Source: Sphingopyxis sp. 113P3 | GTDB lineage: Bacteria; Pseudomonadota; Alphaproteobacteria; Sphingomonadales; Sphingomonadaceae | NCBI RefSeq assembly: GCF_001278035.1 | Contig: NZ_CP009452.1 | Location: forward strand, 1,831,501 to 1,895,500 | Length of the DNA stretch: 64,000 nucleotides | Reading direction: 5' to 3' | Shown here: one piece after another, positions 5,558-47,740 of the stretch | How positions within the stretch are numbered: position 1 is the first letter of the stretch | Layout: each line of letters starts with the position of its first letter | Made by a program: the position numbers and the translations under genes | The notes under the pieces: model-generated | Told to the model about the DNA's origin: nothing | What the model saw: the letters and a program-made list of their open reading frames with translations, nothing else | The model's database searches: none

Positions 5558-6511
5558 ATGTCCTGTCGGTTCTCCGTGGTCATCCCGCTTTACAACAAGG
5601 GTTCCCATATAGCGGATACGCTTGATCGTGTGCTGGCGCAGAGCTTTGCCGATTTCGAGGTAATTGTCGTCGACGATGGATCGACGGATGGCGGCGTCGA
5701 GATCGCGCGCGCCTTCGCATCGGCTCGGGTGCGGGTGATCGAACAGGCAAATGCAGGCGTGTCATCCGCCCGCAACCGCGGCATTGATGGAGCGAGAGGT
5801 GATTATATCGCCTTACTGGATGCCGACGACATGTGGACCCCCGATCATCTCGAAAAGCTCGATGCCCTGATCGAATCCTATCCTGGGCGCGCTATCTACA
5901 GCTGCGCCCATGCGTTGATCCGAAACGGCACCCATCATTACAAAAAGCAGCCGGACACGGAGCCTTTCATCGCAGACGGTCCTGAATTTCTCGAAGAATA
6001 TGCGAAAAGTTTTGCGCTCGTTCATAGCTCCACGGTGTGCATTCCCCGGCTGCTTTTTGCAAAAATAGGCGGATTCCCGGTAGGAATTACCAAGGGCGAG
6101 GACGTGTATGTCTGGATCCGGGCGGCCCTTGCGGGGGGTATTGCGTATAGTAGTGCGTTATGCACCTATTTGAATCAGGACGCCGAAAACCGCAGTGTGC
6201 TGAATAGGAATGGTGAGATACCCTATTATATCCGGTGGCTTGGAAAGGAGCTGGGGGCTGGTAAACTAGGCCCGGAGGAATCCAAGCACGCGCGACGGTT
6301 GCTGCGCCGGAGCATACTTTTTAATGCCGCGGCGTGCCGGGCTCAAGGAGATCCGACGTCATTGGCAGCGTATAGGTCGTTGTCCTGCGCACGATCGCCA
6401 GATATCTCTTTTCCGCTTGCCGCGATATCCGTCTTCCCTGAGGCCATTCTACGGCTGTTAAGAAGATACCGGCATAAAGCAGCCCCGGTACGTTTGAGCG
6501 AGGATATATAA
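5558..6511 (+). CDS. Glycosyltransferase family 2
   Basis: This 317-residue GT-A fold enzyme shows SVVIPLYNKG at the N-terminus, VIVVDDGSTDGG, ANAGVSSARNRG, and the metal-binding LLDADDMW (about residues 86-93). A central KGEDVYVW resembles the acceptor-side ED motif. Such enzymes add a sugar from a nucleotide donor to the lipid-linked repeat unit on the cytoplasmic face. The donor and linkage cannot be read from sequence. Its stop codon overlaps the next ATG by one base (TAATG). Confidence 0.92.
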   Translation: MSCRFSVVIPLYNKGSHIADTLDRVLAQSFADFEVIVVDDGSTDGGVEIARAFASARVRVIEQANAGVSSARNRGIDGARGDYIALLDADDMWTPDHLEKLDALIESYPGRAIYSCAHALIRNGTHHYKKQPDTEPFIADGPEFLEEYAKSFALVHSSTVCIPRLLFAKIGGFPVGITKGEDVYVWIRAALAGGIAYSSALCTYLNQDAENRSVLNRNGEIPYYIRWLGKELGAGKLGPEESKHARRLLRRSILFNAAACRAQGDPTSLAAYRSLSCARSPDISFPLAAISVFPEAILRLLRRYRHKAAPVRLSEDI

Positions 6512-33651: not shown

Positions 33652-34563
33652 TTACGGTGAGTCCGTCCGGAGCGCGTCAATATGCTCGCGACAAATCGTC
33701 TCGACGAGACCTTCGAGCATGGCGACGCGCTCGCCGATCCAGCTCAGCTCCTCGACGCTGATCTTGAATTGAGGCGAGTACCTGGCCTGGACATACGCGA
33801 GACGCAGCAGCTCGAAGCAGCGGCGGCTGAATTTGTCTTTGCGCGGCCAGGCCTCGGCGAGCGCGGGCGCGATCTGCTCGCACTGCGAGCGCAGGAAATT
33901 GAGACGGTGCGATTTTGGCGAGTACAGACACAGCACGAGCAAGGTGCAATGATAAAGGCGCTCGGTCGCCTGATGAAACGCGAACGCGGCTTCTTTTGGT
34001 GCGTCGGTTGAAGAAAAGAATTCCGCGCCACGCCGGAAATTCTGCGCACTCTTGAACCACTCATCAAAGTATTTCTCCGCCTCAACCCGCGCTTCCTCGG
34101 ACGGCAGGTTGCGCGGCTGCGCAAACTCGAACCCTTCGGCCTCGTAGAGCGCGATGCCTTGCTCGATGATATCGACGAAGAAAGGGCGCCCGCGCTCAAG
34201 CTGCGCGTTCACGTCCTTCAGCGAATGCACGATGAAGCTCACCGGTGCGCTCAGCGTCTTCGCGATCGTCACCTCGCGCATCAGCCGATCCTCGGCTGCC
34301 GACCAATGCTCGAACTCGGTGAGCCGGTCGTAGTTGACCACGACGAGGATGTCATAGTCAGAGTGATATCCACCGACCGGGTCATCGACCCAGTCACCGC
34401 GGGCGTAGCTCCCGTAGAGGATGACCTTGAGGATGCGGCCCTTGCGGTTCCAGTCGGCATTGCCGCGCGCGTGCGCGGTCTCGAATTCCTCGAACAGGAT
34501 GCGCACGACCTCGGCAATTTCGCGCTGCTTGGCTGGCGGGAGATGATCAAGGCCGGTTCGCAT
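33652..34563 (-). CDS. Nucleotidyltransferase-HEPN fusion protein
   Basis: This 303-residue protein has an N-terminal MNT-type nucleotidyltransferase domain with LYGSYARGDW and YDILVVV (GSX10DXD-like), and a C-terminal HEPN domain (from about residue 160) with AAFAFHQATERLYHC. Separate MNT and HEPN proteins form toxin-antitoxin pairs in which the MNT adds AMP to the HEPN RNase. Fused forms are common and less clear. ATG34563 (MRTGLDHLPP) is preferred over 34605. It lies at the end of an ardC-sigma-like block, typical cargo of conjugative elements. Confidence 0.85.
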   Translation of the reverse strand: MRTGLDHLPPAKQREIAEVVRILFEEFETAHARGNADWNRKGRILKVILYGSYARGDWVDDPVGGYHSDYDILVVVNYDRLTEFEHWSAAEDRLMREVTIAKTLSAPVSFIVHSLKDVNAQLERGRPFFVDIIEQGIALYEAEGFEFAQPRNLPSEEARVEAEKYFDEWFKSAQNFRRGAEFFSSTDAPKEAAFAFHQATERLYHCTLLVLCLYSPKSHRLNFLRSQCEQIAPALAEAWPRKDKFSRRCFELLRLAYVQARYSPQFKISVEELSWIGERVAMLEGLVETICREHIDALRTDSP

Positions 34564-34620
34564 ATTCTCTACCCTGAAAGGCGGCGGGCGGGAAGGCAAG
34601 CCCATCCGGCCCGCCGTGTC

Positions 34621-34875
34621 TCAAAGCCATGGCCAGACGAGCCAGGGCAAGCGCGCATGGAGGCAGCGCGACCAGATGCCGAGCGCGCGCGCGAATTCCT
34701 CGGTGACCTCCTCGACGGTAATGCCGTGCCGCGTGGCGAGCTCGTGATAGGAGGTCTTGTCGAAGCGGATCGCGAGCAGGATATCGCCTTGCCTCGCACT
34801 CATCTTGGCAAGCGCGATGCGCATGCGGCGCTCGGTATCCTCGATGCTGACCTTGGAAAGATCGCGCCGCCTCAT
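34621..34875 (-). CDS. Small sigma-factor-like helix-turn-helix protein
   Basis: This 84-residue protein has a region resembling sigma-70 region 4 (SYHELATRHGITVEEVTEEFARAL, helix-turn-helix). Such RNA polymerase sigma factor-like mini proteins recur beside ardC in mobile elements of related bacteria. The start ATG34875 overlaps the stop of the ardC 3' fragment (ATGA), indicating that it was coupled to ardC. It may regulate the element, but function is not shown. Confidence 0.65.
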   Translation of the reverse strand: MRRRDLSKVSIEDTERRMRIALAKMSARQGDILLAIRFDKTSYHELATRHGITVEEVTEEFARALGIWSRCLHARLPWLVWPWL

Positions 34876-35074
34876 GGTGCGTCTCCAGCAAGGGCGAGGA
34901 GATAATCGCTCGCCTTGCTCGCAAGGCTCGCTGCGCGAAAGATTGCCCTCTCGTCGTCACGAAGCACCGAGAGCCACGAGGCAATATAATCTGAATGCCG
35001 CACGGTCGGTGTGATACCGAGCGACGCGCAGGTGAAGGCCGCTGCAATCTCGGCGATATATCCTGACAGTCCAG
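34872..35074 (-). pseudogene. ardC: ardC 3' fragment (C-terminus), detached by the recombinase island
   Basis: It encodes about 64 residues: SGYIAEIAAAFTCASLG, ITPTVRHSDYIASWL, LRDDERAIFRAASLASKA. This is the usual end of ArdC-type antirestriction/zincin-like proteins. The N-terminal part is at 41951-42668 in the same orientation. Both pieces meet at a shared 10-bp sequence, and joining them keeps the reading frame. The fragment's own upstream reading (into 35189) is island DNA. Confidence 0.85.
35065..35074. repeat. Left direct repeat (candidate att core) of the recombinase island
   Basis: GACAGTCCAG here matches GACTGTCCAG at 41941-41950 in 9 of 10 bases, in the same orientation and the same ardC codon frame (Gly, Gln or Leu, Ser). 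Confidence 0.7.
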
Positions 35075-35432
35075 CGAAAAATGGCGGTTGGAAGGTGAAA
35101 ACCATCGGTGCCTCCAGCACTGCCCAAAAACCCCATGGCTCCCCCGAGGCGGGGGTGGGCGGCGAGAACGACCGGAGAGGCCCGCGCAAGCGGGGGGCCG
35201 CACCCGGAGGGGCGAAATGAAATGGAGCAGCTCGGCGAAGCCGGGCTTGCGGCGCGCCGTGGCGGGCCTAGCAGGGAGCGCCGACCAGACCCGCATCGAG
35301 GGAGGCACGAAAAATAAGCGCCGCCGCGCCAGCGGCGTCCGCTGGTGAGCGGGCGAAGCCCGCGCATCGCCGTGCGCGACGAAGCGGCCGAGCCCGCGAG
35401 GGATCGACCGCTCGGCTTTGGTCGCTGCTGGA

Positions 35433-36296
35433 TCATGGCTGACGGGCGTGCATCCAGTCGGCCGCTGCCTGCGCCTTGCTCGCCGCGGTGAAGATCGCCC
35501 GCGGCTCGTCCTTGAGCAGTTGCAGCCAAGAGGCGATATAGGCCGCGTGATCGGGTCGCGGTTCGTGCGCGATCCCAAGATCGGCGAGCAGGAACGATGC
35601 GGTCAGTTCGGCGGTCGCTTCCTCCATGGCGAGCGCGTGCCTGGTCCACTTGGCGCTGAAATCCCGGTCAAGCCGATGGGCTGCGCCACTGGCATGAGCT
35701 GCCTCGTGAATATGGGTGGCGTAGAAGCCGTGGGCATCGTGGAAGGCGCTGAAATCCGGCATGTGAATGCGGTCTTCGGCGATATGATAATAGGCGCTGG
35801 CCGAGCCGTAGACAGTATCGATGCCGAGCGCGGCGATGAAGGCTTCGGCGGCGGCGAGGCGTTCGCTCTCAGGCAGGTCCGGCGCCGGTTCGGGCGCGTA
35901 GCCATCGACCTGATCGGCGTTGAACAGGCTGAACGCCTTGGCGAAAAGCCGTCGATGGTCGTCATCGCCGCCGGCGTCGTCACCCTTCGCGCGAAACTCC
36001 TTCCAGAGGACGCCGAGGCTGGCGTGCTCGCCCTTGCGGACCTGCGCGCCGAGCGCCTGCCACTGGCGATAGGTGCCCCAGACCCCGCTCGCGTAGCCGC
36101 TGCCATAGGCGGCCGCCCAGAGCGAGATCGTATTTATGCCGCGATAGGGCTTGCCGCTGGCGACGTTGGTCGGGCGGGTGACGTCGGCGCCAAAATGATG
36201 CCACGGCATGCGCCAGGTGCCGGTGCCGGCTTCGATGGCGTCGACGATCGCTTGCGTGACGCGAGCGTAGACGTCTGAGCGTGGTGAGGCTGACAT
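35433..36296 (-). CDS. ardC: ArdC-like antirestriction/zincin metallopeptidase-like protein (island copy)
   Basis: This 287-residue protein has an N-terminal DUF1738 domain (VYARVTQAIVDAIEAGTGTW, GKPYRGINTISLW) that binds single-stranded DNA in ArdC. It is followed by a zincin-like domain with HIHEAAHASG (HExxH) and the downstream MEEATAELTASF with a further Glu. The C-terminus is HAAYIASWLQLLKDEPRAI. ArdC of plasmids protects incoming ssDNA against restriction. ATG36296 follows a GGAGAA site, and a longer frame to 36377 lacks support. It is the same family as the gene the island interrupts, but clearly diverged in sequence. Confidence 0.9.
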   Translation of the reverse strand: MSASPRSDVYARVTQAIVDAIEAGTGTWRMPWHHFGADVTRPTNVASGKPYRGINTISLWAAAYGSGYASGVWGTYRQWQALGAQVRKGEHASLGVLWKEFRAKGDDAGGDDDHRRLFAKAFSLFNADQVDGYAPEPAPDLPESERLAAAEAFIAALGIDTVYGSASAYYHIAEDRIHMPDFSAFHDAHGFYATHIHEAAHASGAAHRLDRDFSAKWTRHALAMEEATAELTASFLLADLGIAHEPRPDHAAYIASWLQLLKDEPRAIFTAASKAQAAADWMHARQP

Positions 36297-36465
36297 GATA
36301 TGTTCTCCGTTCTCGCGCCGGGGACCATCCCCGGCGGCGGAGGCCCGTTCGCGCCGGGCACAGGGGGGCTCGCGCACCCGTCAGGGCCGCAGCGAAGCGA
36401 AGGACGGCGAAGCCGTTGCGCGGGCGCGCCGACCGGCGCAGGACTCCGCCAACAGCCGGGGTGGT

Positions 36466-38628
36466 CTACGGCGCGGGAGGGTCGATCCCGGCAATCACCG
36501 CGGTCAGGCGATCAAGCTCGCGCTGGAGCGCCTGACGCTGGAGGTCGGAGATGCGCCGTTCGCGTAAGTGCGCCCGGGCATCGGCCGCCGCACGTTCCCA
36601 GGCCGGTCTGTGGCGGGCGGTGATGCAGGCGTTGGGACAGCGGGTCGGTTCGCACAGGGCGGTAAGCGGCTGCGCGGGATCGGGGGTCGTCACGCGCTTG
36701 AGGCAGAGCGCGGTCGCGGGATCGAAGAAGCAATCCGCGAGCGGGCCGACATGGAAGGTGCGCGCGACGCTGGCGAGCATGACGCGCAGGCGGGCGCGAT
36801 CGGCGATCATGGCGGGCAATGGCCCGAGCGTGACGGCGGCATCGTCGAGCGTCCGCGCGATGCGCGGACCCGCCGGACCGCCGAGCGATGCGCCGCCCTG
36901 CCGCCGGTCGAAATAGTCCAGCAGATCGTCAATCTGACCGAGCCGACGCTGCGCCTCGACCTCGGCGCGAAACCCCGATGCGCTGGTCCCGGCATAGCCT
37001 TCGAACGCGGCGACCGAGGCGTGCTTGTACTGGATCATGCCGGCGATGGTGCCGAACGGACGGTTGGCGATGTGCCACGCGATGGTGCGCCGGAACTGCC
37101 TCGTCGTGATGCGCCATGGGTTGCCATCGGGACCGGGCGGGATGACCGGCTCATCGGAGCTGCCGAAGGCGGTGTTGAGGTGATCGCGGAAGGTGTTGAG
37201 CTGGCGCACCACCTCACTCGACAGATGCGTCTTGCTGACAGCGCGGGGACGAAGCACCGGCCAGAGCGTATCGCTGCCGCTGGCGCGCGCCGCTCCTGCC
37301 GACAGACGTTCGAGCACCGCGATCGCGTCTGCGACCGGTTCGATCGTCACCCAGCTCGCCGCCTCGCCCGCGGCGGCGCGGCGCTTGTAGATGGTCGATC
37401 GGATGCGATGCCGTTCGATCAGGCCGTCCTCGCTGCGCGCGATCGAGAGACATCCGCGCCGCATCGCCTGCACCTCGCAGTCGCGCATGCCGGTCAGATA
37501 GGCGCACACGATATAGGCGGCGGCCTGGAGCATCCGTTCCTCGTGTGCGAGAGTCTTCGCGTCGAAGCGCTCGCGCCATGGCCGACCGCTATCGGGATCG
37601 ATCGAGATCGGCGTGTCCATGCCGCCGACCTCCACCCCCAGCTCGGCCGCCACTGCATCGATCAACCTCGCTTCGCCGCCGGTCAGCATGAGATGCGCTC
37701 CGGGCTCGGCCTGCGCGTCGATCCCGGCATGGAGATGCAGGAGATGGGCGTTGATCGGTGGGGTCACGGTGCCGGTGCCCGGATCGACGCGCAGCTTGCC
37801 GTTATGAGCGGTGGCCCAGATCGGTGCGCCGCGCCCCTCGCGGCGTCGGCGATCGAAATAGGCCTTCAGGCGGGTGCGGCGACGTTGCCGGCGATCAGCG
37901 TCCGAAAGGCCGGCGTCGGCGGTGACAAGGCGGTCCCGGCGCGCTTCGAGCCGATCAAGCTCGCGGCGGGCGGCGAGAATATCGTCAGCGAACATGGTGA
38001 CGTAGCGCAACGACCAGGCGAGCAGCGCGGCGATGACCTCTTCCGGGAAGCGCGGCGTGCGGTTCTCCCGGACATGGCGGTAGCCCGCAACGCGGGCGGG
38101 CGCCTGTCCGGCCCAGGGCTCGAATGCAAGGCCTGCGCCAGCGAGGTGGTCACGATAGTAATAGAGATCGGAGACCACTTCGAGGAGGTGACCGACGATG
38201 ACGGGTCGTCGGGCAGGATCGTCACGAAGATGACGGGCATAGGCATCGACCAATGGCTGATCGATACAGGAAACGTCGAGCCGTCCGAGCCGCTCACGGG
38301 CGAAGGCGAAGAACCGGCGAGCACGGTTGAATACCTGGCGGATACAGGCGGGTGGTAACTTCGTTCGATAGCCGGGAAGATCGACGTTGAGGCGCGCGTA
38401 GAGATAGGCACGCATCGCTGCCTGGACATCGGCATGTTCAAGCACGTCGAAATGCACGGTGACGTGGCAGCGCCGGGCGTTCTCGCGGAAGACGGCGGGA
38501 CCAAGATCCCAGCTTGGGTCGCCAACGCGCGATAGCTCCTCACGGATATGGCCTTCCTTGAGCGGCGCGCTCGCCAGCACGGGGCGATCGTCGAAGGCGG
38601 GCGCCTGGGCATGGGCGGGCATGGTCAT
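36466..38628 (-). CDS. Third tyrosine recombinase of the trio (GinC-like), 720 residues
   Basis: The catalytic domain shows CAYLTGMRDCEVQAM with the first Arg, ITTRQFRRT where HxxR would be expected (His replaced by Thr), IQYKHASVAAFEGYAG with the late His region and Tyr. Beyond it lies a C-terminal extension with cysteines (CFFDPATALC, CEPTRCPNACITA) that may bind zinc, then a helical tail. ATG38628 overlaps the stop of the previous gene (ATGA). The incomplete catalytic set suggests partner dependence. The longer frame to 38859 overlaps the second gene and is not used. Confidence 0.85.
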   Translation of the reverse strand: MTMPAHAQAPAFDDRPVLASAPLKEGHIREELSRVGDPSWDLGPAVFRENARRCHVTVHFDVLEHADVQAAMRAYLYARLNVDLPGYRTKLPPACIRQVFNRARRFFAFARERLGRLDVSCIDQPLVDAYARHLRDDPARRPVIVGHLLEVVSDLYYYRDHLAGAGLAFEPWAGQAPARVAGYRHVRENRTPRFPEEVIAALLAWSLRYVTMFADDILAARRELDRLEARRDRLVTADAGLSDADRRQRRRTRLKAYFDRRRREGRGAPIWATAHNGKLRVDPGTGTVTPPINAHLLHLHAGIDAQAEPGAHLMLTGGEARLIDAVAAELGVEVGGMDTPISIDPDSGRPWRERFDAKTLAHEERMLQAAAYIVCAYLTGMRDCEVQAMRRGCLSIARSEDGLIERHRIRSTIYKRRAAAGEAASWVTIEPVADAIAVLERLSAGAARASGSDTLWPVLRPRAVSKTHLSSEVVRQLNTFRDHLNTAFGSSDEPVIPPGPDGNPWRITTRQFRRTIAWHIANRPFGTIAGMIQYKHASVAAFEGYAGTSASGFRAEVEAQRRLGQIDDLLDYFDRRQGGASLGGPAGPRIARTLDDAAVTLGPLPAMIADRARLRVMLASVARTFHVGPLADCFFDPATALCLKRVTTPDPAQPLTALCEPTRCPNACITARHRPAWERAAADARAHLRERRISDLQRQALQRELDRLTAVIAGIDPPAP

Positions 38629-40412
38629 GCGCGGACCTCCGGCGGCAGATAAAGCCGCTCGCTCTCCATCTGCCGGCGCGCATCGGCGATGACGGCATCG
38701 GTGAAGGCCGGCACGATCTGGGCTGTGATGCGAGCATGGACGCGGCCGAACTTGGCTGCCCAATCGGTCGCGGGCAGGCTCAGCCGCTGCTCTTCGACGA
38801 ATGCGAGGAAGGCGAGGATCGCGGGGAGCTTGCGCACGGTTATGACGGCGTTGGGACAATCAAGGCAGCCCCAGAAGGGCTGCGCGCAGGGTGATCCGGC
38901 CTCGGCGAAGGGACTGTTGTGGAAGCCAGCGCAGGCGGCGAGCCAGACATCCTGTTCGCCGTCGAGCAACGGACTCACGGTATCGGGCGGCATCAGCGGC
39001 GCGGCCTGTTCGGGTGCTTCGCGCAGCGCCTGCTCGGCGGTGGGCGGAAGCACGGTCGGCATCGCGGCGGCGACCGCCGCGCGAAACGCATCGGCGACGG
39101 CCGTCTCGTGCAGGGGCCGGAGCGACGGCAGATCGGCATAGTGGCGCGCCGCCACCTCGCGCGAGTGGCCGACCGCGAAGCGCGTCATATGCCCCTCGGT
39201 CTTGGTGTACCACAGCGCCTTGTGGGTCTTGCGGAGCCGCGAAAGCAGCAGGTGGAGGGGCTTGCCGTCGTCATCGACAACATCGTGCCGAGCTACCCAG
39301 GCATCGATCCGTTCCGTCGGGTGGCGGATACCTGCCCGCAGGCCGCCAGCGTTGTGATAAACCCAAAGACGATCATCGTTCAGATGCTTGCGGGTAGTCG
39401 CCGTGACCTCGATCAGGCGGCGGATAAGACCGCCGGGCGTGCCGCTACCGCCATCGCGGACCCGCATGCCCTTGTGCTCGGCGCCGCGGGCGCGGCGCTT
39501 CAGATAGCGCAGCTCCACCGTGCCGGCATGCGGGTTGGCGAGACAATCTATGGTCAGGGCCTTCAAGCACTCGGGCTCGAGGCCGGTATCGAGCGTGAGC
39601 AGCACGAGCAGTGCCGGCAGGTCGCTCGCGAGCAGATGGTGCCGGCCATGCAGGTCATCGACCAGTGTGCTGATCGGCAGGCCGCGCCGCAAGCGCATGA
39701 AATAGAGGCTCTTCAGCGCCGGATGGTCTGCAACGATGAAGCCCTGCCGCGCGATGATCGCTTCGACATCGGCGCGCGCCCTGGCGATGACCGGGTCGCC
39801 TTCATCGGTGCGGTCGTCGGCGCCGAGACGGCGGAACATCGCTTCGACATCGGTCCTCGCGGCGTCGCGCAACGCGCGGGCGACGAAGGGGCTATAAGCA
39901 TCGCGCGGGGTCGAGCGGCCCGCCGATGTGGCCAGCGTGTAGCGCAGCCGCTCATGCAGGTCGGGCGCGATCCGATCGGGCCGGTCTGCATCGATCGCGC
40001 GCAATGTGTTGACGATCTTGCCGACCGATATGTGCCGATGGATCGCGCCCATCCCGCGCTGTTCGAGCGCGGAGGCGAACCCATCGATATGGACTGCGCG
40101 CAGGTCGCTGACGCCGGTTACCTCCGGTGCACCATCGCCAAGCCAGGCGAAGAAGTGACGATAGACCTGCACATACTGCTTGATGACGCTGGCCACACCG
40201 ATGGGGCCGCCGAGCGCTGCTGATCGACGCAGTGCGCCGGCGAAGGCGATAGCGAGCGGGCGAGGATCAAGCCCGGTCATATCGATCAGGACCGTTCCGC
40301 CATGCCGCGCCTCGATGGTGAACTTGAGGCCGAGCACGGGATCGGGCTGCACGGGCTCCGGCGTGATAGGCGAGAAGGCAACGGGCCTGCCCTTGCGGGG
40401 ACGCCCGCTCAT
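38625..40412 (-). CDS. Second tyrosine recombinase of the trio (GinB-like), 595 residues
   Basis: It contains the region DTGLEPECLKALTIDCL (Glu where the first catalytic Arg usually stands), LSRLRKTHKALWY, then TRFAVGHSREVAARHYAD with the GH motif and probable nucleophile Tyr. A C-terminal cysteine-bearing part (GSPCAQPFWGCLDCPNAVI) resembles the one in the third protein. ATG40412 overlaps the TGA of the first gene (ATGA). The gene probably acts with the other two as a complex at island ends. Confidence 0.85.
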   Translation of the reverse strand: MSGRPRKGRPVAFSPITPEPVQPDPVLGLKFTIEARHGGTVLIDMTGLDPRPLAIAFAGALRRSAALGGPIGVASVIKQYVQVYRHFFAWLGDGAPEVTGVSDLRAVHIDGFASALEQRGMGAIHRHISVGKIVNTLRAIDADRPDRIAPDLHERLRYTLATSAGRSTPRDAYSPFVARALRDAARTDVEAMFRRLGADDRTDEGDPVIARARADVEAIIARQGFIVADHPALKSLYFMRLRRGLPISTLVDDLHGRHHLLASDLPALLVLLTLDTGLEPECLKALTIDCLANPHAGTVELRYLKRRARGAEHKGMRVRDGGSGTPGGLIRRLIEVTATTRKHLNDDRLWVYHNAGGLRAGIRHPTERIDAWVARHDVVDDDGKPLHLLLSRLRKTHKALWYTKTEGHMTRFAVGHSREVAARHYADLPSLRPLHETAVADAFRAAVAAAMPTVLPPTAEQALREAPEQAAPLMPPDTVSPLLDGEQDVWLAACAGFHNSPFAEAGSPCAQPFWGCLDCPNAVITVRKLPAILAFLAFVEEQRLSLPATDWAAKFGRVHARITAQIVPAFTDAVIADARRQMESERLYLPPEVRA

Positions 40413-41758
40413 ATGCCCTGCGGTCCCGGCAACAGCGCGAGCAGCTCCTCGACCGCCGCATCCACCGTATCGGCGCGGGTCGCGATATGATCGAGATAGA
40501 TATAGGTGGTGGTGAGGCTCGCATGGCCGAGCAGGCGTTGCACCTGTTGCAGCGGGTCGCCAAGGATCAGCCGGTAGCTCTCCACCGGCCCCGCCGGCAA
40601 TGCGGCTTCGCGCAGCCGCTGCTGGATCAGCAAGGCGAGCATATGGACCGCGAATGTGTGGCGAAGCTGGTGCGGGCTGATCGACAGCGGGAAGCCGTTC
40701 TCCTCGCACCGCTTGCAGGCGCGGGTGAAGATCACCTCCCACGAGTTGGGGCGGACAGGCTGCCCGACCTCGGTCAGCCACAGCGCCGCCGGCTCGCGGG
40801 GCGGTCCATCCTCGTCGTACAGGATAAGGCGGCATCGTTCCTCCGGAGTGCAGACATCGCGCATGCGGTCGAGACCGGCGCGGGTGACAGGGATCGGTCG
40901 CTCGAAACTGGCCGCGCCATCGCGCGCGGCGAACTTGGCCACGCCCGCTGCGCGCTCGACGGCGACATAGGCGGCGATCTGACGAAGCAGCCGGCGTGGG
41001 ACCAGAACGCTGCGTCCCCGGTCGCCCTTGGTGAGCGGCGGCGGGAGAGGCAGCCAAAGTTGTTGGGCATCACCGTCCGCGCGGTCGATCGCCGCGAGCT
41101 CGACGGTGAGCAAGCCCGACGCCTCTTCGAGGCGCAGGCCGGTGGTGACGAGAAGATCCGCGAACAGCGCGTTGCGCAGCCCATTACGGTCGCGAGCGCC
41201 GGGGCGCTCCGTGCCGTCAGGGGTGAGCCCGCGCAGGCCGACCTCGCGGAAAATGCGGTAGTCGTCCATCGTGACGAACCGGACATCCGATCGCCTGGCG
41301 ACACGTTCATAGGCATCGTTGCGCGCCGCGATCATGCCGCGACGGCCACCTTGCGCCGGTCGCCACACGGCGCGGCGGCTGAACGGCGCGTCGGCGATCA
41401 ACCCTTGCTGCTCGCCCCAACGGTAAAGGCGATCGAGGCTGGCGACGGCGCGGTTCCAGCTTGCCGCCGTTATCCGGTGATCGGCATCGTCGCGGCGTCG
41501 CTCACGATGATAGGCGTCGACATCGTCGCGGGTCGCAGCCCACACGGTCTTGCCGCAGGCATCGAGAAAACGAAGCCAGACTACGACATCATAGGCGTAG
41601 GCGCGAAGCGAGTGCCGCGAGCGGACGCCCGACAGCGGCAGGTCGAGAAAGAAGCGATCCAGATCGGGATCGTAGAGCGCGTCGTCGCGCTGGATCAGCG
41701 GCACATGCGCATCGAGGCCCCTGGCCTCGCGACGCTCGCAAACAGTAATGATCGACAC
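40409..41758 (-). CDS. First tyrosine recombinase of the trio (GinA-like), 449 residues
   Basis: This complete tyrosine recombinase has an N-terminal SAM-like core-binding domain (SLRAYAYDVVVWLRFLDACG) and a catalytic domain with TGLRLEEASG (Arg I), SPHQLRHTFAVHML (HxxR), LLGHASLTTTYIYLDH (GH and Tyr nucleophile). All key residues are visible, unlike in its two partners. It begins 182 bp from the right edge of the island, a stretch that holds a strong inverted repeat. It is the promoter-proximal gene of the trio. Confidence 0.92.
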   Translation of the reverse strand: MSIITVCERREARGLDAHVPLIQRDDALYDPDLDRFFLDLPLSGVRSRHSLRAYAYDVVVWLRFLDACGKTVWAATRDDVDAYHRERRRDDADHRITAASWNRAVASLDRLYRWGEQQGLIADAPFSRRAVWRPAQGGRRGMIAARNDAYERVARRSDVRFVTMDDYRIFREVGLRGLTPDGTERPGARDRNGLRNALFADLLVTTGLRLEEASGLLTVELAAIDRADGDAQQLWLPLPPPLTKGDRGRSVLVPRRLLRQIAAYVAVERAAGVAKFAARDGAASFERPIPVTRAGLDRMRDVCTPEERCRLILYDEDGPPREPAALWLTEVGQPVRPNSWEVIFTRACKRCEENGFPLSISPHQLRHTFAVHMLALLIQQRLREAALPAGPVESYRLILGDPLQQVQRLLGHASLTTTYIYLDHIATRADTVDAAVEELLALLPGPQGI

Positions 41759-41833
41759 CGGCGCGAAGCCCTCCCCCCGGACCCCCCACCCGGAAGCTGA
41801 CCTTCACACCGATGCGCGCTATGGCCCGGCAGC

Positions 41834-41885
41834 AATCAGGCTGGCCTCCGCCAGCTCTTGGGTCAGCGCTACGGCCAGCCTGATT
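41834..41885. repeat. 13-bp inverted repeat upstream of the recombinase trio
   Basis: AATCAGGCTGGCC at 41834-41846 is repeated inverted as GGCCAGCCTGATT at 41873-41885 (26 bp between). It lies between the right att core and the first recombinase gene. Likely a recombinase arm-binding site or operator. Confidence 0.6.
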
Positions 41886-41940
41886 ACTGCCTACCGTGGG
41901 CGTCCATCGCCGACCTTACTGCAATGTTGCGGACGGCGCA

Positions 41941-41950
41941 GACTGTCCAG
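41941..41950. repeat. Right direct repeat (candidate att core) of the recombinase island
   Basis: GACTGTCCAG, 9 of 10 identical to the left copy at 35065-35074. Beyond it, the ardC 5' fragment resumes in frame. Confidence 0.7.
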
Positions 41951-42668
41951 ATAAGGCGACGAGCTCCTCCTTTGCGTAAGATTCCGAGCCAAAGCCGCCT
42001 GACTGATTGCGGTCCAAGCGCGAGGGATGTCCCGTCCAATGCCCGAGTTCGTGGAGCGCGGTGCGGTACCAGTCGATCGGCTGGTGGAAGGCCGCCTGCG
42101 GCGGCACCTGCACAAAGTCATGTGGAGGGCTGTAGAAGGCTTCATCGCCGCCGATCTGGACGCGGGCGCCGCATGCAGCGATCAGACTGTCGGCCCCAGC
42201 GACGGCCACCACGGGCTCGGGGCTCGCCATGGATGCAGTATAGTCTGCAGGCAATCCTTCGCACTGGTCGACATTGAAGACGACGAAGCGCTTGAGGAAC
42301 GCAACCCGCCTCGCTGCGCGATCGTCTGCCTTGGCCGCCTCGACCTCGGCTTTGGGGGTGAAGCGGTCGGCATAGCAAATGACGGTGCCCCTCTCGCCGC
42401 GCCGGACATTACCGCCTGCAGCTTCCGCCTGCCTATAGGTGAGCCAGCGCTGCGAGGCATAGCCCTCGGTTACCACCTCGGCCCAGAGGATCAGCACATT
42501 GATCCCGCTATAGGAGCGAAGCGTTCCGGCATTATGCGGCATGGTGCAGCCGCACGCGGCGCGATCCCAGGGCTGCACCCAGGGAAGCCGGCCGTCCTCG
42601 AGCTCGGCGATGATCCGCTTCGTGACCTCCGAATAGAGGCCTGCTCTCTCTTTTCGTACTCTACGCAT
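41951..42668 (-). pseudogene. ardC: ardC 5' fragment (N-terminal about 239 residues), truncated by the recombinase island
   Basis: It starts MRRVRKERAGLYSEVTKRII after a GGAGATGAGG ribosome site. It has the DUF1738-like domain (GTLRSYSGINVLILW, YRQAEAAGGNVRRGE) and the zincin motif TALHELGHWTGHPSRLDR (HExxH), then ESYAKEELVALSG. The frame runs 20-odd bases into the island and stops at 41916. The restored protein would be about 305 residues, a normal ArdC length. The part lost is C-terminal to the metal site, so the fragment could still bind ssDNA. Confidence 0.85.
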
Positions 42669-44726: not shown

Positions 44727-44896
44727 CGTCCGTCCTTCCATCAGTGGGTCGGACGAACCAACTATGCCGAGTCGCTCTGTCTAACAAGGCGCTGAAATAT
44801 AACGAGATAATCTGACACGGTCCGCGACGGAATCGTCAAGGGAAAGGGCTTTGCATCGTGCGGACGCGCGCATCTTGCTGTAAGTGGATCGCCCTT
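44727..44896. other. Probable oriT and divergent promoter region between traC and traA
   Basis: In Ti-type systems the transfer origin lies between divergent traCD(G) and traA, as this 170-bp gap does. TGTAAGTGGATCGCCCTTATG next to the traA start (from about 44879) resembles the TAAGTG-GCCCT nick cores of MOBQ origins with three extra bases. The assignment rests on position and this partial similarity. Confidence 0.5.
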
Positions 44897-47740
44897 ATGG
44901 CGATCTATCATTTCCAGGTGAACGTCATTTCCCGCTCTTCGGGCAGCAGCGCGGTCACCGCTGCGGCCTATCGTTCGGCAAGCAGGCTCTACGATGAGCG
45001 ATACGGGCGCACCCGCAATTTCACGAACAAGGCTGGCGTCGTCCACAGCGAGGTCCTGCTGCCCCTAGGCGCGAACGAGCGCTGGCTCAATCGAGAATGG
45101 CTCTGGAATGATGTCGAGGCCCGCGAGATCCGTTGGGACGCGCGACTGGCGCGCGAGGTGGTGTTTGCCATTCCCAGCGAGATGACCCAGAGGCAGGGGA
45201 TCGAATTGGCCCGCGATTTCGTCGGACGCGAGTTTGTCGAACGCGGCATGGTCGCCGACCTCAATGTGCATTGGGACATCGGTGCCCGAGGGGGGCCCAA
45301 TCGGCACGCGCACGTCATGCTGACAATGCGCGAGATAAGGGCCAGCCAGGATGGTCCCGCAGCGTTCGGGCTCAAGGTAACCGAATGGGACCGCAGAGAG
45401 CTATTGATGGATTGGCGCGTCGCATGGGCGGATCACGTCAATGAGCGCCTGGCGACCCTCGATATCGATGCCCGTATCGATCACCGCAGCTTGAAGGCGC
45501 AAGGGAGCGACCTTGAACCCCAAAACAAGATCGGTGCTGCCGCCTTGCGTATGGCGGCGCGCGGCCTCCGCTCCGATCGTCTTGCCGAACATGCCGGGAT
45601 CGCGCGGTCAAACGGCGAAGGGCTTATCGCCAACCCCGTAATCGGACTCGACGCGATCACCCATGGGCAAGCAACCTTCACAACGAGAGACCTCGCGATG
45701 TTCGCGCACAGCCATAGCGACGGCAAGGAGCAGTTCGACGCGGTGATGGCAGCTCTCAAATCCTCGCCCGACCTGATTGCGCTCGGCAAGGACGCGCGGG
45801 GCGACGAGCGCTTTACGTCGCGCTCGATGATCGAGATCGAGGAGCAGCTCGAGCGCGCGACCGCCGCACTCGACGCGAGGCGCCGTCACGGGGTCAGCGA
45901 TCGTCACCGCCAGCATGCTCTTGCTCAGGCGGCGGCTCGCGGCTTTGAGCTTTCCGCCGAGCAACGCGGCGCACTCGAGCACATCACCAGCGCGCGCGGG
46001 ATCAGCAATGTCATTGGCTATGCGGGGACGGGCAAGAGCGCGCTGCTTGGCGCCGCGCGCGAGGCATGGGAGGCCGCGGGCTACCAGGTGCAGGGAGCGG
46101 CGCTCGCGGGCGTCGCCGCCGAGGGCCTCGAGCGGGGCTCGGGCATCGCCTCGCGAACGCTTGCAAGCCTTGAGCATCAATGGGCAAATGATCGCGAGCG
46201 GCTGACCGGCAAGCATGTCCTCGTCATCGACGAGGCGGGTCTCGTGGGGACGCGTCAACTCGAACGCATTGTGTCTGAGGCCGAGCGTCAGGGCGCCAAG
46301 ATCGTTCTCGTGGGGGACCCGCAGCAGCTCCAGGCGATCGAGGCGGGCGCTGCCTTTCGCGCCGCCGCCGAGCGGCACGGCGCGATCGAGATCATGGACA
46401 TCCGCCGGCAGCGGGCGGACTGGCAACGCGAAGCAACGCGCGAGCTTGCCACAGGGCGAACAGGCGAGGCGATCGCGCGCTATGCCGCGGCCGGCTTTGT
46501 CCATGCGGCCGCCACACGCGAGGCAGCGCGCAGCGCGCTGGTCGATGCCTGGGAACGCGACCGCGAAGCCCATCCCGATGCAAGCTGCATCATCCTCACC
46601 CACACCAATGACGAGCGCAAGCAGCTCAACAAGGCGGTACGCGAACGGCTGAAGGCGCGCGGCGAGCTCGGCGGTGAGGTGGCGCTCAAGGTCGAGCGTG
46701 GAGCGCGCGCTTTTGCGGCGGGCGACCGGATCATGTTCCTCAGGAATGAGCGCGCACTCGGCGTCAAGAACGGCTCGCTCGGGACGGTCCAGTCCGTGGA
46801 CGCGGTGCGGATGGCCGTGATGCTCGATGACGGGCGCAGCGCCGCGTTCGACCTTGTGGATTACGGCCATGTCGACCATGGTTATGCAGCGACGATTCAC
46901 AAGGCGCAGGGGATGACGGTCGATCGCGCTCAAGTGCTCGCGACCCAGGGGGTAGACAGTCACTCGATCTATGTCGCGCTGTCCCGGCATCGCGAACAGG
47001 TCGAACTCTACTATGGCCGCGACGATTTTGCGACCCAATCGAAGCTCATAAGCGCGGCATCGCGTGAGCGCGGAAAGGATATGGCGAGCGATTATCGAGT
47101 GCAGCGCGGTCCCGGGATTTCGGGCTTGCGATCGAGCGTTCGATCGCTCGCTGCTGCTTCAGCGTGCAGCGAGCTCGAGGAGGCGATCGAACGCTTTGCG
47201 CGCCTTACCAAGGAGATTGTCGAGATCCGGCGCGAGGGCGGCAAAGAGTCGCCGGATGAGCTCGCGAATTACCGCAGCGCTGGGGAGGCGCTCGATGCGC
47301 TGTGCCCCGGGGGCGCGAGCGAACTGCGAGAAGCGTTCGGGCAGAGCGAGGCGCTCACCCGCGAGGCGGCCGAAGGGCGGACCGCGCGCGCGATCGCCGA
47401 GATGGAGCAGCGCCAAGCGGCGCGGGCGGCCGAGCGCAGTGCCTCAGCGTGGGAGCAGACCCGCCTTACGGCCGAAGCCGAGAAACGCGCGGAGCGGTTT
47501 GTCAGCGCCTGGACGAAGGAAAGCGCGCTGGCGAAAGATGGAGCAAGCCATGCCGCGCGCAGCGAAGCGCGCGCCAATCTGGCGAACATGGCGAAGGGCC
47601 TGCAGCGCGACCCGGAGCTCGAGGCGCTGCTCATGAGCCGGCGAACGCAGCTTGGCCTCGACGCCGCCAGCACGAAAAAGCTGTCCCGGGATATCCAGCA
47701 ATATCTTGGGCGTGGACGGGGGACCGGTATTTCGATGTAG
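44897..47740 (+). CDS. traA: Ti-type conjugative relaxase-helicase TraA (MOBQ)
   Basis: This 947-residue protein starts MAIYHFQVNVISRSSGSS. The MobA/MobL relaxase domain (about residues 1-230) has SAVTAAAYRSASRL and the metal-binding GGPNRHAHVMLTMR. The RecD-like helicase part (from about 355) has Walker A GYAGTGKSAL, Walker B VIDEAGLVGTRQL, VGDPQQLQAIEAGAAF, and late TIHKAQGMTVD with VALSRHREQVELYYG. TraA nicks oriT and unwinds DNA for transfer. It is shorter than Ti TraA (about 1,100). No traF, traB, traG or mating-pair genes follow, so the element is probably mobilizable or decayed. Confidence 0.93.
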   Translation: MAIYHFQVNVISRSSGSSAVTAAAYRSASRLYDERYGRTRNFTNKAGVVHSEVLLPLGANERWLNREWLWNDVEAREIRWDARLAREVVFAIPSEMTQRQGIELARDFVGREFVERGMVADLNVHWDIGARGGPNRHAHVMLTMREIRASQDGPAAFGLKVTEWDRRELLMDWRVAWADHVNERLATLDIDARIDHRSLKAQGSDLEPQNKIGAAALRMAARGLRSDRLAEHAGIARSNGEGLIANPVIGLDAITHGQATFTTRDLAMFAHSHSDGKEQFDAVMAALKSSPDLIALGKDARGDERFTSRSMIEIEEQLERATAALDARRRHGVSDRHRQHALAQAAARGFELSAEQRGALEHITSARGISNVIGYAGTGKSALLGAAREAWEAAGYQVQGAALAGVAAEGLERGSGIASRTLASLEHQWANDRERLTGKHVLVIDEAGLVGTRQLERIVSEAERQGAKIVLVGDPQQLQAIEAGAAFRAAAERHGAIEIMDIRRQRADWQREATRELATGRTGEAIARYAAAGFVHAAATREAARSALVDAWERDREAHPDASCIILTHTNDERKQLNKAVRERLKARGELGGEVALKVERGARAFAAGDRIMFLRNERALGVKNGSLGTVQSVDAVRMAVMLDDGRSAAFDLVDYGHVDHGYAATIHKAQGMTVDRAQVLATQGVDSHSIYVALSRHREQVELYYGRDDFATQSKLISAASRERGKDMASDYRVQRGPGISGLRSSVRSLAAASACSELEEAIERFARLTKEIVEIRREGGKESPDELANYRSAGEALDALCPGGASELREAFGQSEALTREAAEGRTARAIAEMEQRQAARAAERSASAWEQTRLTAEAEKRAERFVSAWTKESALAKDGASHAARSEARANLANMAKGLQRDPELEALLMSRRTQLGLDAASTKKLSRDIQQYLGRGRGTGISM

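Follow-up and report, generated by a model that had tools for sequence, protein, structure and literature searches.

The window analysed here is a 64-kb stretch of a 4.66-Mb genome in two contigs, and its closest plasmid relatives point to a sphingomonad as the probable host. It contains an ardC gene that is interrupted by an element of 6897 bp (35058-41954; the element, its genes and the interrupted ardC are all given on the minus strand). The element runs from TTAT (41954) to GGATAT (35058). Its ends are fixed by relatives, which keep them, and by empty sites. The N-part of the interrupted gene (41955-42668) has the ssDNA-binding domain, HExxH and EEL, and it matches PF08401 and positions 3-83 of PF18818. 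The C-part (34872-35057) matches positions 81-125 of PF18818. The first-pass annotation had described ArdC N- and C-terminal fragments around a 6.9-kb block with three recombinase genes. The Pfam matches bear out the fragments, and the three genes are there. Absent from that annotation was a second, complete ardC inside the block (35433-36296). It encodes a 287-aa ArdC with EEATAE in place of EELVAE, which matches PF08401, PF18818 and the ArdC crystal structures 6i89/6sna (E about 3e-56).

R1 (40409-41758) is a tyrosine recombinase of 449 aa that matches PF02899 and PF00589. All five catalytic residues are there (TGLR, HQLRH, LGH, IY), assigned by eye on an alignment. R2 (38625-40412) is a recombinase-like protein of 595 aa. 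It has no Pfam match and in the alignment lacks the first Arg and the box-II His, and its profile matches the second gene of GInt/SE-like modules (E 8.7e-20). R3 (36466-38628) is a large recombinase of 720 aa. It has no Pfam match either, its aligned residues are R, R replacing H, R, H and Y, and its profile matches the third gene of the same modules (E 4.8e-18). NCBIfam gave generic Xer-type matches for R1 only and none for R2 or R3. The order ardC N-part, R1, R2, R3, full ardC, ardC C-part is the usual one in nearly all loci analysed.

Ends and direct repeats

The left end TTATCTGGACAGTC (41941-41954) contains the left copy of the decamer GACWGTCCAG (41941-41950), which comes after the terminal TTAT. 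The right end GACTGTCAGGATAT (35058-35071; reverse complement ATATCCTGACAGTC) is overlapped by the right copy (35065-35074), which stops 7 nt before the end (AGGATAT). The left end matches the inverted right end at 11/14 positions. Elsewhere in the family the inverted ends are imperfect too: a comparison of eight elements gave 11-13 matches over 14 positions for the inner halves. The family consensus is TTATCT[G/T]GACAGTC on the left and GACTGTCAGGATA[T/A] on the right. Contig breaks mark the same ends. Contigs L072 and L093 begin with TTAT and L034 and L052 with GCC + TTAT, all four finish with GGATAT, and they look like collapsed repeats. A search for long inverted repeats across the whole island found chance-like pairs only.

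The decamer varies among relatives. The left form is CTGGACAGTC in 62/95 ends and CTTGACAGTC in 33/95, and the right form is CTGGACTGTC in 63/80; these counts exclude loci without a recognised end (at one stage 6 had no end, 21 the left only and 7 the right only). It must be noted that the part of the ends that is constant is just GACWGTC with the outer bases, and the end searches demanded exactly that part.

The first-pass annotation took the decamer as the edge of the island and as a core common to the target. Recombination would then take place inside the GACWGTCCAG repeats and leave one copy behind in the empty ardC. There are points in favour of this. The decamer occurs exactly twice in 64 kb as two direct copies in phase with ardC, the joined frame is open, and the pair is not a matter of chance (0.12 copies expected, two copies in 0/100 shuffles). 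However, the element does not end at the decamers. In relatives the breaks are at TTAT and GGATAT. The annotation had proposed a comparison of the edges of homologous islands as a test of its core, and on the left roughly one edge in three (33/95) has no decamer. Joining at the decamers leaves nine extra codons, which would add LSGLSGYIA (read by eye) within the metal-ligand helix of ArdC. This insert is seen in 0/188 aligned ArdCs (120 database relatives of one target, 65 element-borne copies and 3 from empty sites). The host frame is indeed restored on removal, as had been claimed, but at the true ends, where keeping a single 6-bp spacer gives the native EELVAE. Since empty sites have no decamer, we reject it as the crossover core, unless a scar is the usual outcome of excision, and a decamer-based excision seems to us next to impossible. 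The repeats are the element's own ends, and they recur in direct orientation because the GACWGTC inside them is nearly palindromic.

Target site and six-base footprints

The element enters ardC at a 6-bp spacer, RTNGCN, which comes after the EEL codons and before the next E. In R388 ArdC numbering the EE ahead of the insertion is E228-E229, and E229 is described as a metal ligand (PMC7213743). The left spacer in the window is GTCGCC (41955-41960), the codons V-A of the interrupted gene. The right spacer is ATCGCC (35052-35057), unlike the left, and is read under the footprint rule as the footprint of a previous site. Where flanks of at least 90 nt were available among the loci analysed, the flank is ArdC, in frame, in 75/81 on the left and 61/65 on the right. 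The 43 targets left after removal of near-copies are scattered across the ArdC tree. In the empty sites L107, L108, L109 and L110 ardC is uninterrupted and reads straight through as EELVAE, so the two pieces are contiguous in related genomes, a point the first-pass annotation had wanted checked. L110 is the best match to the window's target (73.7% identical) and is empty. The earlier proposals of a complete targeted element and of ardC as its conserved attachment site are thus supported, although base-by-base conservation is absent from the 6-bp spacer.

Some elements have other targets. L019 and L076 cut another gene, and L106 carries ArdC with a left flank that is not ardC. L104, L116, the second element of L024 and L101 (right side) are in a small PF27469-family gene. 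Other mobile DNA also hits ardC. RIT-looking recombinase trios sit next to the HWTGH codons as separate insertions in the ardC that the element also cuts (L004 1-2815, L005 1-2803, L015 1-2807). The ardC upstream of the element in L006-L009 and L026 is hit as well, and reverse-transcriptase genes, one of them annotated as a group II intron, split the same ardC. By the ardC locus of the window are a nucleotidyltransferase-HEPN protein and a MobA/MobL relaxase-helicase (33652-34605 and 44858-47740), so the site probably lies in an integrated conjugative or mobilisable region.

Another copy in the genome of the window, L010, interrupts a second ardC gene and agrees with the element at every one of its 6897 bp; a further copy on the second contig, L011, has diverged, with an R1 that is 67% identical. 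Among within-genome copy pairs, window/L010 included, 12 of 13 differ by 0 bases over 6.9-9.4 kb and the remaining pair by 1. Judged by sequence, the spread within genomes is recent. Relatives came from plasmid matches and from a one-genome-per-species scan, which gave 80 of the 136. Their hosts are alphaproteobacteria plus a few MAGs labelled otherwise, and in the genomes examined the family is seen almost only in Alphaproteobacteria. In sparse class- and phylum-wide samples, with three candidates scored per genome, the element is in 1/385 and 2/398 genomes, its own genome counted. The plasmid pCHQ1 of Sphingobium indicum UT26 holds one of the elements. In two identical 9386-bp copies, arsenic genes occupy the stretch from the carried ArdC to the right end (L016 8519-10912, L017 9612-12005), and L090 carries a DnaB-like ATPase domain protein (5742-6488) in place of ArdC.

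The left 6 bp are the target's own, equal to the empty-site spacer wherever empty sites are known, and the right 6 bp are often foreign. Empty site L107 has the spacer GTGGCT. The insertions L016, L031 and L111 at this type of site all have GTGGCT on the left, with three different right spacers (GTCGCC, GTGGCG and GTAGCA respectively). Empty site L108 has GTCGCC, and L014 and L017 at that type of site have GTCGCC and GTGGCC. In seven multi-copy genomes the right spacer equals the left spacer of a sister copy in 9 of 17 cases; this set leaves out the plasmid matches H14, H15, H17, H19, H21, H22 and H24, and other multi-copy genomes may exist. Shuffling gives a mean of 2.02 and a maximum of 8 matches, with 0/20,000 shuffles reaching 9, a figure that is a guide only since sister copies are not independent. 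Left spacers never match left spacers in these genomes, nor right spacers right ones (0 and 0). The ceiling would be 10 matches if every multi-copy genome had one outside founder.

Some of these matches form histories. In one chain the spacers agree at every base: the left GTAGCG of L030 is the right of L029, and the left GTGGCG of L029 is the right of L031. Rare spacers are shared as well, CGGGCC between the left of L005 and the right of L004 (both Tardibacter) and TGCGCC between the left of L013 and the right of L012 (both S. baderi SC-1). These point to a donor in the same cell. The window copy fits as the donor of L010, whose right spacer GTCGCC is the window's left. The reverse does not fit, as the window has ATCGCC on the right and L010 has ATTGCC on the left. 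This case is weak because GTCGCC is common.

Not everything agrees with a simple one-way history. There is no donor in the genome for 8 of the 17 right spacers, and the pairs L004/L005 and L007/L009 match both ways, which such a history does not predict. The right spacer GTGGCC of L017 differs in its last base from the left spacer GTGGCT of L016. Left and right spacers are equal in 13/61 loci against 5.8 expected by shuffling. Separately, L008 and L112 have the ardC of one target on the left and that of another on the right, probably because element copies on two plasmids underwent homologous recombination.

We propose that R1 (catalytic), R2 (catalytically degenerate) and R3 (large) would act on the 14-bp inverted ends and the 6-bp spacer. 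The element would enter the ardC of plasmids and related islands between the metal-ligand EEL codons and the next E. The target's 6 bp would remain on the left, and the left 6 bp of the donor copy would be placed on the right. A circular intermediate, a strand bias and copy-out may be expected by analogy with SE/Tn554-type elements. The host ardC would be cut, and the element would usually bring along its own intact ArdC as a presumed functional replacement. One could instead take the element for a dead remnant that is spread by homologous recombination between plasmids alone. The chimeric flanks of L008 and L112 show that such recombination happens. However, the same nucleotide has been entered in many unrelated ardC genes, the footprints alter just 6 bp, and identical copies lie in different targets within one genome. 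A dead remnant is hard to believe given these three observations. We argue that the elements probably make up a site-specific, target-replacing, transposon-like family with three recombinases, an ardC target, a footprint rule and a recoded ArdC of its own. The ends, the target and the footprint rule can be read off the sequences; mobility and the replacement of ardC are what we infer from them.

The carried ArdC and a probable second carried homologue

An intact ArdC is found in 65 of 72 two-ended elements. The others are L043, L076, L085, L088, L089, L090 and L104, of which L088 and L089 are inside ardC all the same. The carried ArdCs are one clade: 19 distinct rows fall on one side of a branch (98/96), and 43 targets and 24 others fall on the other side. 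One row of this tree, t_L027, is a frame artefact with a very long branch. The carried gene is conserved under purifying selection (dN/dS 0-0.22 in 9 pairs). L020 and L023 have distant recombinases and close ArdCs, which suggests that the ArdC gene is exchanged between elements.

The carried copies differ from the targets at the insertion site. Leu after EE is kept in 2/65 carried copies, while at least 110 of the 120 database relatives have it; this background consists of the best relatives of one target and is biased to target-like motifs. The spacer Ala is Val in 22/65 carried copies. These altered codons may make the carried copy immune to self-insertion. With its target codons changed, the carried ArdC should replace the lost gene and not itself be a target. 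It must be noted that the right footprint of L049, ACCGCC, is identical to the codons that stand in the place of the spacer in the window-type carried ArdC (GCG ACCGCC GAACTG), as would be expected if a carried ArdC had at some time housed a donor copy.

A sister lineage has a different pair of genes. The gene interrupted in L104, L116, L101 and the second element of L024 encodes some 54 residues, and the cut falls at ...EELR-A|ELR.... Precomputed annotation assigns PF27469 to 33/33 of the matches listed as intact relatives of this target. Right behind R3 these elements have a 57-residue protein with a start and size as in the target protein, and PF27469 is assigned to 4/33 of its relatives, P0141 among them. 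A local Pfam scan of four small-gene sequences did not report PF27469. Target and carried protein match in hhalign at 92.7% (E 4.3e-7). In pairwise shuffles 5 of 12 pairs beat all 5000, and the worst pair was reached by 79/5000; the half-gene comparisons were reached by 46 and 2 of 2000. The carried protein is probably homologous to the cut target. In L076, which cuts another gene, no homologue of its target was noticed in the element. In P0141 the N-terminal start is that of the PF27469 target and the remainder that of the element-borne homologue; it is apparently a chimera and may be a recombination product.

There are two other ways to explain the carried ArdC. It might be ordinary antirestriction cargo, its kinship with the target a coincidence because ardC is common on mobile DNA. 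ArdC is reported to help plasmid entry (PMC7213743), and L016 and L017 carry arsenic genes as cargo. We consider this unlikely, since in the sister lineage, whose target is another gene, the carried protein is a probable homologue of that target, and the carried ArdCs depart from the targets precisely at the insertion codons. It might also serve as a transposition factor instead of replacing the target, as a Spartan-like protease that binds ssDNA and takes the place of the missing fourth gene (GinD/Srap). Its role could be, for example, to clear the DNA-bound covalent recombinase during strand-biased copy-out. The gene is directly behind R3 in most copies and under purifying selection, and no GinD-like gene was found in the family. 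The ArdC fold resembles Spartan (PMC7213743), and the SE model invokes the removal of covalently bound integrase (PMC10214605). However, elements without ArdC exist, so as an obligatory mobility gene it is rejected. L088 and L089 are inserted in ardC without carrying it, L090 and L043 lack it and end at contig breaks like multi-copy repeats, and the other lineages (L104, L116, L076) do not have it. Even if the host ArdC could still act in trans, such a role strikes us as quite improbable.

If the carried gene is a replacement, the broader reading would be target substitution. Each lineage would follow one plasmid gene, destroy a conserved stretch of it and supply its own site-recoded copy. We offer this tentatively, as a possibility on the doubtful side. 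The protease function of R388 ArdC is reported to be dispensable for conjugation (PMC7213743), and this counts against replacement. If target substitution is true, plasmids would depend on the element for the function, and the element would travel with any plasmid in need of that function. The family would then supply two independent examples, ArdC and the PF27469 gene, and Tn552-II/Tn553 would add one from elsewhere. With a target and a carried homologue paired in two lineages, the idea that such elements make good the genes they destroy can be put to the test; ardC, the gene concerned, helps plasmids get past restriction.

Comparison with known systems

The first-pass annotation placed the trio with RIT, Tn554-like and GInt-type elements. 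This was right in kind, and the nearest relatives found, distant ones, are GInt/SE-like modules. R2 matches B and R3 matches C of four-gene modules on a Paraburkholderia and a Pseudomonas plasmid (hhalign 99.2% and 99.0%). The matches span most of each protein, the gene order is shared, and the crossed comparisons are null (0.2% and 0.5%). These modules are called GInt/SE-like from their layout only, and the comparison covers R2 and R3. Their middle protein is degenerate (by eye), as in the R1-R2-R3 family and in SEs. In GInts, in contrast, the degenerate protein is said to be GinC. The fourth gene of the modules encodes 167-172 residues. No GinD-like ORF was found in the family loci, and an HMM from two GinD/Srap-like proteins matched only L113-L115 and none of the family loci.

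The SEs (PMC10214605, PMC9345347) are similar in their order of a small recombinase, a degenerate recombinase-fold protein and a large recombinase, and in their few selected targets. Their intA-tfp-intB layout corresponds to a complete R1, an R2 without the first Arg and His, and a large R3 (residues by eye). The imperfect inverted ends of 13-19 bp and the 6-bp spacer are of the SE type as well. In SEs the 6 bp beside the donor left end are reported to enter the circle and reappear at the new right end (PMC10214605, PMC9345347), and here the same rule holds in 9/17 cases against 2.0 by shuffling. The SE authors report SEs only from Gammaproteobacteria and did not find Tfp/Srap homologues in alphaproteobacteria (PMC10214605). 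The present family differs from the SEs as those sources describe them in its alphaproteobacterial hosts, its ardC target, the ArdC it carries and a GinD-like fourth gene not found.

GInts (Tn6571 family; PMC5385486) also have three recombinase genes at one end with cargo behind them and a high site specificity, and 6-nt staggered cuts have been proposed for them (PMC5385486). The second and third genes of the GInt/SE-like modules have homologues in order here, R3 and R2 being matched to C and B. The full set ginABCD was not found, although ginD is described as essential in GInts (PMC5385486), and GInts are reported mostly at gene ends such as ssb (PMC5385486). Their direct att repeats of 10-17 nt are chimeric. 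The 10-bp direct repeat here is no chimera and belongs wholly to the element. RIT elements (PMC3414803) likewise have three overlapping tyrosine recombinase genes. All three RIT families are described with a possible catalytic motif (PMC3414803), so membership is rejected, as R2 is degenerate and lacks key residues. Transposition of GInts and RITs is stated not to have been reproduced in the laboratory as yet (PMC10214605).

Elements of this kind are already known as SEs, GInts and Tn554 relatives. In the part of the literature that was surveyed, no published report of an ardC-targeting three-recombinase element was found. Within that scope, what appears to be new is an alphaproteobacterial family directed at ardC, together with its recoded ArdC, a second target gene and footprint histories that can be followed inside single genomes. 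Three-recombinase elements are poorly understood. In this family natural insertions into a single kind of gene are numerous, and with their empty sites and 6-bp footprints to hand, genomes reveal the rule that links donor and recipient and part of the genealogy of the jumps.

The closest parallel for the carried gene is in Tn552-II/Tn553, which are related to Tn554 (PMC12486829). There too the donor att arrives at the right end, a Tn554 feature that is present here. The tnpA+tnpB+tnpC make-up of Tn554 differs from the three recombinases of the family, in which no TnpC-like gene was noticed, and Tn552-II/Tn553 are tnpABC elements of Staphylococcus (PMC12486829). Tn552-II is the one report found of a target-like gene within such an element (PMC12486829). 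It carries the target-gene-like gene tgl, for which its authors suggest a rescue role (PMC12486829). As described there, tgl keeps a copy of the att site, whereas the site is altered in 63/65 of the carried ArdCs.
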